Of a stretch of 21,728 bases of DNA, positions 2,968-11,932 are shown one piece after another. Position 1 is the stretch's first letter. Every line of letters begins with the position of its first letter. Origin of the DNA: a virus; IMG/VR virus record IMGVR_UViG_3300032293_002603, positions 1-21,728 of that record; one strand, written 5' to 3'. Position numbers and translations under genes: made by a program. Under the pieces are notes generated by a model. That model was not told the DNA's origin. It was given only the letters and a program-made list of their open reading frames with translations, and made no database searches.

Positions 2968-3525
2968 TCAGTAGTGAGATGGGGTGACGTGCATTGTTTC
3001 CGGTGTCGGGAACGGTGCCGTGTATTGGCGCTTGCCCATTGATACGACTTTTCTCATTGCTGCAATGTCTGCGGGGACATTTACGTCCGTGCCACGGTCT
3101 CTGAAGCCTTTCATTTCTTTTGCAAATCCCGGTGTAGTTTCTTCGGGGCTTGCTTGTTTCAATGAAGACATTCTAGTCATATCAGAAACAACATCACCAT
3201 ATTGTTGTACTGTCTCGACATCTCCCGACAAAGCAGCAGATCCAACTTGTGCTCCTGCAGTTCTTATTAAATCCTCACGTTTAATGGCTCTTTTTAAATA
3301 TGGATTATAATGTTTTTGAAGAAGATCGTCAATTTCAGCACTTGACAAAATACCACTTCCTCCTTGTGCCTTTTTTTGAGCTTTAAGCTCATCTCCGGCT
3401 TTCATGTATGCTTCGAGCCCTATGTTTTCTATTTCTTTTGGAGAACGAATTCTGGCTTCAAGGATATCAATTCGTTCCTGAAGTTGCTCGCAAAGATTCT
3501 TGTAGTAGTTTGTCAGATAATTCAT
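2968..3525 (-). CDS. MNYLT-tag protein B, putative capsid-targeted late protein
   Basis: A 185-aa protein of unknown function starting MNYLTNYYKNLCEQLQERID. The tag helix runs to about residue 23 and ends ILE-A (residues 21-24), again a fit to the gp21-type (L/I)xE|A rule. Beyond it the protein is charged and helical to about residue 110 (SAEIDDLLQKHYNPYLKRAIKREDL), then Pro/Met-rich towards the end. It shares nothing with the other tagged proteins past the tag. A consensus late promoter TATAAATA ends 5 nt upstream and a private terminator follows, so it is a self-contained late unit. Confidence 0.65.
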   Translation of the reverse strand: MNYLTNYYKNLCEQLQERIDILEARIRSPKEIENIGLEAYMKAGDELKAQKKAQGGSGILSSAEIDDLLQKHYNPYLKRAIKREDLIRTAGAQVGSAALSGDVETVQQYGDVVSDMTRMSSLKQASPEETTPGFAKEMKGFRDRGTDVNVPADIAAMRKVVSMGKRQYTAPFPTPETMHVTPSHY

Positions 3526-3589: not shown

Positions 3590-3949
3590 TCAGGGGCCGG
3601 GTGGATTGTTGTAGTAATCCCATTCCCATCTATAGAATTCGTCGCTACCGACTTTATAAGGATTATTTTTGTGATAATTTGCGGGATTGGATATCCATTG
3701 TCTCCATTCCCTGCTCTTTGGTCCCTTTTCGTGTGGCTTGTTGTATCCAGGTGAAAGACCATCGGGACGACCACCGTTTCCACGATCACCCTCTCTCGCG
3801 GGTGGTGTCTGGGCATCGGCTTCCATTGGAGCAGGCATCTCCAACTCTGTTGGCATTGGAGCAGACATTTCTACCAATCTAGTCAATTGGTGGATTCTCT
3901 GTTCGAGAATTTCACATTTGTTTTTGTAGTAATTTGTCAGGTAATTCAT
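3590..3949 (-). CDS. MNYLT-tag protein C, putative capsid-targeted late protein
   Basis: A 119-aa protein of unknown function starting MNYLTNYYKNKCEILEQRIH. The tag is followed by LVE-M at residues 25-28, in the position where A and B have LxE|A but with Met instead of Ala after the Glu. Residues 29-75 are low-complexity (Met/Pro/Glu, then Gly/Pro/Arg), and the C-terminus is aromatic and polar (EWRQWISNPANYHKNNPYKV). Unlike its relatives it has a Shine-Dalgarno-like AAGGAAA, and its late-type promoter (AATAAATA, 3969-3976) is 19 nt upstream, overlapping the stop of the preceding gene. Confidence 0.65.
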   Translation of the reverse strand: MNYLTNYYKNKCEILEQRIHQLTRLVEMSAPMPTELEMPAPMEADAQTPPAREGDRGNGGRPDGLSPGYNKPHEKGPKSREWRQWISNPANYHKNNPYKVGSDEFYRWEWDYYNNPPGP

Positions 3950-4530: not shown

Positions 4531-5139
4531 ATGAACTACCTAACAGAATATTATAGAAATAAATCAATTGTTCTCGAGCAAAGAGTTAAAGAACTTCAAG
4601 ATATCTTGGTTTTAGTTGAAAATAATAAAAATTATTATCTAGAAGAAAACTGGAGAGAATACTTGGCAAAATTAGTTGGTGGTGCTGCTGATGAGGTAGC
4701 TGCAGCCGCAAGTAGAAAAGTTAAATGGTCTACTAAACTCCATCCAAATAAATGGAGAGATTTAGTCAAAGAAGATTTATTAAAATTTGTTGGTCCTCCA
4801 TTAACTTGGACAAGACCGGGTCCAGGTGGAACCGCAAAGCAATATATATTAAAAAGAATTCCTTTAAAAGAAGGTGAAGTATATGAGGTTTGGGTGTGGG
4901 ATGAAGCAGGTGAACAATGGTTGAGAGGTAGAAATGGTCCTACGCCTTGGGGTAAGGTTGGGCCTTCCGGGTATGTACCCGAACCGGGGCGCGGTCTCGT
5001 ACCAGGACCAGATGGAAAATGGTTTAATCCTAATGCAAAACTTTCAGCTGATGTCGGTGATGCCGGACCAGTAAGAGCAACCGTTGCCGGTAACGAAACT
5101 CAGGGTGCAGGGGGCAGTGATGAAGAAATCACTATCTAA
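4531..5139 (+). CDS. MNYLT-tag protein D, putative capsid-targeted late protein
   Basis: A 202-aa protein of unknown function starting MNYLTEYYRNKSIVLEQRVK, the fourth copy of the N-terminal tag and the only one on the plus strand. LVE-N occurs at residues 28-31 after the tag. The body has a charged helical part (LHPNKWRDLVKEDLLKF), a possible small beta domain (residues about 105-130, YILKRIPLKEGEVYEVWVWD), then a Gly/Pro-rich tail. A consensus late promoter ends 5 nt before the ATG. It overlaps the next gene by 20 nt, so the two are co-transcribed. Confidence 0.65.
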   Translation: MNYLTEYYRNKSIVLEQRVKELQDILVLVENNKNYYLEENWREYLAKLVGGAADEVAAAASRKVKWSTKLHPNKWRDLVKEDLLKFVGPPLTWTRPGPGGTAKQYILKRIPLKEGEVYEVWVWDEAGEQWLRGRNGPTPWGKVGPSGYVPEPGRGLVPGPDGKWFNPNAKLSADVGDAGPVRATVAGNETQGAGGSDEEITI

Positions 5140-11077: not shown

Positions 11078-11738
11078 TTTATTATCGGCGTTGACAGATT
11101 CTTTACCAAAATATGAAGTTACCCTTCCAGTATCAGGAAAACTGATCGTTTTTTCTCCTTTTAAAGTAAAGGATGCAAAAAACTTATCAATAATATTTCA
11201 AGAAAACAATAAAAAACTGGCTTTGAAAGCTTTATACGAAATATTAAAAAGCAATTCGGACATTGATAATTTGGATTCTGTTTGTTTAGCAGACGCAGAA
11301 TACCTGTTTCTCCATATACGAGCAAAAAGTATTGATGAGGTAATAAGTGTAATTTTTCAGGATCAAAAATATCAATTAAATATATCTGATATAAAATGCA
11401 TAAATGGCATTTCTAAAAAAATAATAGATATTGGTCCTGAATTAAAAATAGAACTGGGATCGCCCCTTTTAAATGATTTTACAAACTTGCAAAATTTTGA
11501 TGACGATGTCATCAAAAAAACATGCATAAAAAAGATAATATTAAAAAATGAAATTTTTGATTTAAAAAAGTTTGTGCCAGAGGAATTAAAAACATTCATC
11601 AATAATCTTCCTATTACGGTAATGAAGAGCATTGATGAATTTATGTTATCACAACCCAGACTTACTGCCTCTATAAAGCTTGATGATGGTTCCGACAAGG
11701 AGGTTGGAGGCTCATTAGATTTTTTTATCTTGCGGTAA
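11067..11738 (+). CDS. 26: Baseplate hub protein gp26-like (0-frame product)
   Basis: A 223-aa protein starting MKNDLLSALTDSLPKYEVTL. N-terminal PKYEVTLPVSGKLIVFSPFK followed by 'VKDAKNLSIIFQENNKKLAL' is the gp26 opening (a short beta hairpin, 'rpf..ke...l'). Then come an alpha-helical part with AEYLFLHIRAKSIDEVI and a region that in relatives binds target as a small beta unit. Length is close to T4 gp26 (208 aa). In T4, gp26 and gp51 act in assembly of the central hub. The last codons contain a -1 slippery heptamer (11720-11726), and the stop TAA lies inside the hairpin that follows, so part of the product should be extended in frame -1. Confidence 0.65.
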   Translation: MKNDLLSALTDSLPKYEVTLPVSGKLIVFSPFKVKDAKNLSIIFQENNKKLALKALYEILKSNSDIDNLDSVCLADAEYLFLHIRAKSIDEVISVIFQDQKYQLNISDIKCINGISKKIIDIGPELKIELGSPLLNDFTNLQNFDDDVIKKTCIKKIILKNEIFDLKKFVPEELKTFINNLPITVMKSIDEFMLSQPRLTASIKLDDGSDKEVGGSLDFFILR

Positions 11739-11756
11739 GATATTTTGATCTTACCG
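11720..11756 (+). promoter_or_regulatory. Programmed -1 ribosomal frameshift signal
   Basis: The slippery heptamer T_TTT_TTT (11720-11726) is in the right phase: 0-frame codons are 11721-11723 and 11724-11726, both TTT. A 6-nt spacer ATCTTG (11727-11732) follows. Then a 9-bp perfect stem CGGTAAGAT (11733-11741)/ATCTTACCG (11748-11756) with loop ATTTTG. The 0-frame stop TAA (11736-11738) lies in the 5' arm. Heptamer, spacer length and stem all meet the usual rules for bacterial -1 frameshifting. Confidence 0.8.
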
Positions 11757-11932
11757 ATTATTATAAGACAAATTTTAAATTAATAAATCACTATAGATGG
11801 TCCTTATATGATCTGGAAAACATGTTTGTCTGGGAAAGAGAAATATACATCAACCTGCTAATGGATCATATACAAAACAGTGAAACGCAACAACAAGCCA
11901 ATGGAAATCCTTTCGAGATGTTTAGACAATGA
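11726..11932 (+). CDS. gp51-like C-terminal extension reached by -1 frameshift
   Basis: In the -1 frame the ribosome would add 68 residues to gp26 (288 aa in all): YLAVRYFDLTDYYKTNFKLI, then NHYRWSLYDLENMFVWEREI, then YINLLMDHIQ and a polar tail ending FEMFRQ. The tail resembles gp51-type hub-assembly proteins ('y...y..i....SL.ELE.M.pwEr.iy'). The frame opens only at 11687, after a TGA at 11684-11686, and has no ATG, GTG or TTG before ATG 11822. A start there would drop half the domain. No Shine-Dalgarno sequence precedes it. The stop overlaps the next start (ATGA, 11929-11932). That the tail is gp51-like rests on pattern memory; the open frame and signal are seen directly. Confidence 0.7.
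   Translation, partial: YLAVRYFDLTDYYKTNFKLINHYRWSLYDLENMFVWEREIYINLLMDHIQNSETQQQANGNPFEMFRQ

Follow-up and report, generated by a model that had tools for sequence, protein, structure and literature searches.

Genes 26 and 51 of a T4-like phage and of nearly all relatives examined very probably form one gene with a programmed -1 frameshift of the lambda G/GT type

Frameshifting in the tail assembly chaperone (TAC) genes of phages is a classical observation (Xu, Hendrix and Duda 2004, as cited in PMC5009743) and has been stated to be a widely conserved trait of long-tailed phages, 'except T4' (PMC5009743). In lambda gpG/gpGT and HK97-type systems the short chaperone gene has a slippery heptamer at its 3' end, where a -1 shift is made, and the long form bears a C-terminal domain. 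The locus described here is laid out in the same way, but its slip site is U_UUU_UUY, accompanied by a Shine-Dalgarno (SD)-like element and variable hairpins. Its short product, gp26, is about twice the size of the HK97 TAC and has no detectable sequence similarity to solved chains. As to T4-like phages, Vladimirov, Gautam and Davidson (2022), a study available to us through the papers that cite it, identified their TAC genes as gp26/gp51 (cited in PMC12846349 and PMC10885494). PMC12846349 also attributes to that study poly-T slip sites in the TAC-N genes of T4-like phages, and its title, as given by the citing papers, argues for a mechanism other than frameshifting. The initial annotation of the DNA analysed here knew of no description for the gp26/gp51 pair, a statement that has to be withdrawn, since the 2022 study had named these genes. 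A description of the anatomy of the signal and of its breadth in T4-like phages was not found in the available literature, in which the 2022 study is represented by its citations; these two aspects, and a gp51 hidden in Aeromonas phages, are what our analysis adds. Also close is the TAC frameshift of the Vandenendeviridae and Andersonviridae (PMC12846349), which shares a poly-T slip site at the end of TAC-N and a -1 extension that precedes the tape measure gene and is left unannotated. Those are other phage families, their slip site is an invariant GTTTTT, and an upstream SD or RNA structure is not reported in the available part of that paper.

We analysed a window of 21,728 nt, the whole of an IMG/VR virus record (21.7 kb), whose relevant features are collected in Table 1. 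The gp26 frame ends with the in-frame codons GAT TTT TTT ATC TTG CGG TAA, which contain an in-phase X_XXY_YYZ heptamer ahead of the 0-frame stop. After a spacer of 6 nt (11727-11732) follows the hairpin CGGTAAGAT-ATTTTG-ATCTTACCG, a perfect 9-bp stem whose 5' arm holds the 0-frame stop TAA (11736-11738). The -1 frame stays open up to a stop that overlaps the next ATG and has no ATG, GTG or TTG before about residue 32 (scored on locus L001, which is identical to the window over 45 bases counted from the slip site). Its product matches phrog_634, annotated as 'baseplate hub assembly catalyst' gp51 (4e-19). The heptamer with its spacer and hairpin, the open -1 frame of 68 codons, the lack of a usable start before the middle of the domain and the resemblance to gp51 had all been claimed in the initial annotation, and all were confirmed. 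Joining gp26 residues 1-220 to the extension gives a predicted long product of 288 aa. There are 73 in-frame X_XXY_YYZ heptamers in the genes of the window; the one in gp26 has the longest -1 extension (68 codons; runner-up 34), and no other stands immediately in front of a stop. The gene that follows gave no significant family match in profile searches of the Pfam and PHROG type (PF, phrog).

Table 1. Features of the gp26/gp51 locus, with positions in the 21,728-nt window.
Feature	Position	Strand	Evidence
Gene 26, short product (TAC-N), 223 aa	11067..11738	+	PF12322 T4_baseplate 1.5e-26; phrog_150 6.8e-29; AlphaFold pLDDT 90
AAGGAGGT, SD-like, 15 nt before slip site, common to window clade	11697..11704	+	Sequence; spacer of 15 in 12 loci
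GGAGG, second SD-like element, 9 nt before slip site	11706..11710	+	Sequence; counterpart of the GAGG/GGAGG of relatives at about 10 nt
Slippery heptamer T_TTT_TTT	11720..11726	+	Sequence; TTTTTTN in 148/149 loci
Presumed stimulatory hairpin, 9 bp, loop 6	11733..11756	+	Folding; arms invariant in ten-sequence alignment A4; relatives also have excess structure there
-1 frame extension (gp51/TAC-C domain), 68 codons + stop	11726..11932	+	phrog_634 4.1e-19; tblastn to 529 phage records
Next gene, 157 aa	11929..12402	+	ATG overlaps stop of the extension (11930-11932)

The initial annotation had suggested comparing the heptamer and the hairpin in related genomes. The heptamer is retained in all nine IMG/VR relatives of gp26, and in a set of 149 non-redundant loci from IMG/VR contigs and GenBank T4-superfamily phages, which are related sequences and so not mutually independent, TTTTTTN was found in 148, always in frame and separated from the gp26 stop by 0-3 codons. 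These come from cyanobacterial, pelagibacter, rhizobial, Caulobacter, Pseudomonas, Ochrobactrum and Vibrio phages and include P-SSM2, S-PM2, HTVC008M, Cr30, pf16, Milchi, Vibrio R10Z, phiM12 and ORM_20. The single locus of the 149 without the heptamer, L152, has a gp26 that ends early, with an apparent internal deletion. Over 20 codons, 148/148 have an open -1 frame, and the +1 frame is stopped in 146 of these and open in 2. Conservation extends to synonymous sites: the first Phe codon of the slip site is TTT in 148/148, versus 74% TTT elsewhere in gp26, and the codon before it is always NNT, versus 83% NNT (S/D/N codons) elsewhere. Phe-Phe pairs elsewhere in gp26 genes are mostly TTCTTT, so that protein constraint alone does not explain the invariant TTT.

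Upstream of the heptamer the relatives carry GAGG or GGAGG at a distance that peaks at 10 nt (about 100-109 of the 148 loci). The Glu-Gly residues that carry this element use GAG in 107/123 cases, versus 28% elsewhere. In E. coli dnaX an SD-like element lies about 10 nt before the heptamer and a hairpin about 6 nt after it, and the spacing of the three elements here is similar. The slip site of dnaX is A_AAA_AAG, in contrast to U_UUU_UUY, and frameshifting there yields a shorter, not a longer, protein.

Downstream, positions 11718-11780 of the window fold with a minimum free energy of -13.3 kcal/mol (z -3.5 against 200 dinucleotide shuffles). Among 63 representatives under 80% identity, with synonymous-codon resampling as the null, the 66 nt after the slip site have a mean z of -2.04, with 57% below -2, versus mean z values of -0.25 to -0.55 in six control stretches of gp26 and gp51. 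The stems vary by clade, often starting 5-7 nt past the heptamer. In the largest clade (59 sequences) the hairpin pair 21-35 covaries (UA37/AU10/GC7), with 17 doubly changed cells versus 5.1 in shuffles; it links a synonymous Ala site with a non-synonymous Glu/Val/Ala site, and it is the only covarying pair out of 11 there. Both hairpin arms are identical in the ten sequences of the window clade (alignment A4), so covariation is uninformative in that clade, where the case for the hairpin is its stability and position. An SD-like element upstream and structure downstream thus accompany the slip site, with covariation in one clade. As to conservation of the hairpin, what stood was unchanged arms within the window clade and an excess of structure in relatives; the stems themselves differ between clades.

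The family relationship of the two genes is clear from profiles: the N-terminal part in the window belongs to PF12322/phrog_150 and the C-terminal part to phrog_634, the same protein family as T4 gp26/gp51. T4 gp26 and gp51 are paralogues, each matching PF12322 over its full length, and the phrog_634 tail is found in T4 gp51 and not in T4 gp26. A profile of 61 predicted fusion proteins was aligned with both: the T4 gp51 alignment spans 23 to 282 and crosses the junction, whereas that with T4 gp26 stops at the slip site. Near-full-length gp51 matches number 1334 records, chiefly from enterobacterial, Acinetobacter and Aeromonas phages. These alignments indicate that T4 gp51 is a full gp26 paralogue plus the small domain, that is, the in-frame counterpart of the predicted fusion. 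The earlier description of gp51 as a separate gene in T4 is correct as far as the gene goes, but T4 gp51 is not merely the small domain. Unlike the loci described above, T4 has one gene for the short form and another for the long, diverging on opposite strands, and gene 26 has GAG TTC TTT GAG, no slip site, at the equivalent position.

The initial annotation had read the product as a baseplate hub fusion. We modelled gp26 with AlphaFold (pLDDT 90) and compared the model with the PDB. Foldseek gave no significant match, and we judged the folds in its list meaningless. Upon realignment of its top 1000 chains (999 aligned), 3fgx came first (Z 5.9, 83 aligned, rmsd 4.3) and the HK97 TAC 2ob9 second (Z 5.1, 83 aligned, rmsd 4.7), the next being at Z 2.8. 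On this realignment the gp26 model may resemble the HK97 tail assembly chaperone, with a modest Z and over its N-terminal part only. Profiles of gp26 and of the extension gave chance-level matches only against the sequences of solved structures. In Cr30, HTVC008M and phiM12 the gene pair lies close upstream of the annotated tape measure gene, with one small gene between; within the window, family profile searches identified no tape measure gene. The frameshift architecture, the fold realignment and the proximity to the tape measure gene in those three phages fit a TAC-N/TAC-NC pair, and, with 3fgx and 2ob9 as the best matches of the model, gp26/gp51 would be better called a tail assembly chaperone pair than a hub fusion.

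Taken together, the comparative evidence strongly supports the proposal that a programmed -1 frameshift gives products of 223 and 288 aa as in lambda G/GT, and we consider it very probable that genes 26 and 51 of this phage are one gene making a short and a long chaperone. Most ribosomes would read gp26 to its stop and release the short form. A minority would slip back one base on tRNA-Phe at T_TTT_TTT, aided by the upstream SD-like element, which could pair with 16S rRNA, and by the hairpin downstream; reading on in the -1 frame, these would miss the stop and append the 68 residues of the gp51 domain, giving the long form. The tape measure protein would be covered by many short and few long copies, which would bring in the tail tube subunits. 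We infer slippage and its rate, the ratio of the products, the chaperone role and the binding of tape measure and tail tube by analogy with lambda (PMC5009743).

gp51 could instead be a separate protein, its synthesis beginning either by coupled re-initiation past the gp26 stop or at a non-standard start, the T run being plain Phe-Phe codons. Many relatives do annotate gp51 as its own gene, with a start that overlaps the gp26 stop or lies a few nt after it; an ATG occurs within 8 codons past the slip site in 34/63 representatives, and the -1 frame of the window holds an ATT at 11714. In Pseudomonas phage Cygsa01 (L172 472-1382) gp26 and gp51 are arranged in the same way but the heptamer is absent (ATT TTC ACC TAA TG), so the slip-site rule is not universal, and the TAATG stop-start overlap suggests that at least one lineage may use restart. 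Some other phages could also start gp51 separately. Against this as the general route, 21/63 representatives, the window clade among them, have no ATG, GTG or TTG before the domain, and a separate start in the window is accordingly unlikely. Moreover, the SD-like element stands 10 nt before the slip site and not before an ATG, the annotated gp51 start of L010, L014 and the P-SSM2-type clade sits within the conserved hairpin stem, the synonymous positions of the heptamer are fixed, and T4 gp51 is a full-length fusion. On balance we regard separate synthesis as improbable.

Slippage of RNA polymerase on the T run, rather than of the ribosome, could also make a -1 message, and the seven T of the window would favour it. 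However, 120/148 loci have only six T followed by C, which is short for bacterial transcript slippage, and the SD-like element and downstream structure fit ribosomal slippage; we hold this even less probable than separate synthesis. A one-base assembly error splitting a truly continuous gene would be helped by the homopolymer run and would recall the fused, single-frame form of T4, but the same frame relation recurs in 148 loci, drawn from isolate genomes as well as from many metagenomes, always with the 0-frame stop just past the slip site. Retention of the heptamer in the nine IMG/VR relatives and across the comparative set excludes such an error, and the isolate genomes refute it; its probability is close to nil.

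The ribosomal frameshift made a prediction, which was tested on Aeromonas phages Ah1 (L170 538-1480) and phiAS5 (L171 535-1484), taken by us as relatives of Aeromonas phage Aeh1: both carry T_TTT_TTC before the gp26 stop, with the gp51 domain hidden in the -1 frame. In the Ah1 record gp51 is unannotated, and the phiAS5 record has only a 123-bp hypothetical ORF there. More broadly, gp51 was left out of the annotation in several relatives, and among 14 annotated relatives none records a joined CDS for gp26/gp51. In phiM12 (L020) gp26 bears locus tag 161 and gp51 locus tag 164, a gap that looks like the removal of two earlier gene calls from the junction. gp51 has been reported missing in Aeh1 and 'reduced' in cyanophages and vibriophages (PMC3037559); frameshifting would explain both the missing gene and the truncated look of cyanophage gp51. 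It also suggests that hundreds of genomes have gp51 annotated with a wrong start or not at all.

With these loci the T4 superfamily would fall in line with other long-tailed phages, in which frameshifting as a rule sets the ratio of the tail chaperones. We think it fairly likely that the frameshift is the ancestral route of the superfamily to two tail chaperones and that T-even-type phages swapped in a gene duplication, a polarity read from distribution only. Gene 26 would have lost its slip site and gene 51 would have turned into an uninterrupted fusion. Recoding would thereby have given way naturally to duplication, with the product ratio controlled by different means, and the short 'gp51' annotated in cyanophages would be an artefact. 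T4-type and frameshift-type relatives offer a ready comparison of recoding with gene duplication.

Two other features of the window may be mentioned. Four neighbouring small genes (2221-2886, 2968-3525 and 3590-3949 on the minus strand, and 4531-5139 on the plus strand) have a common N-terminus, M(N/D)YLT(N/E)YY(K/R)N, which leads into a likely coiled coil, and unrelated C-terminal parts, as if one N-terminal tag had been put on different cargo. Positions 1-2000 have a G+C content of about 60-62%, versus 30-45% in most of the window, and several short ORFs with variants of RGLAF...WYH; this may be a foreign segment or a contig chimera.
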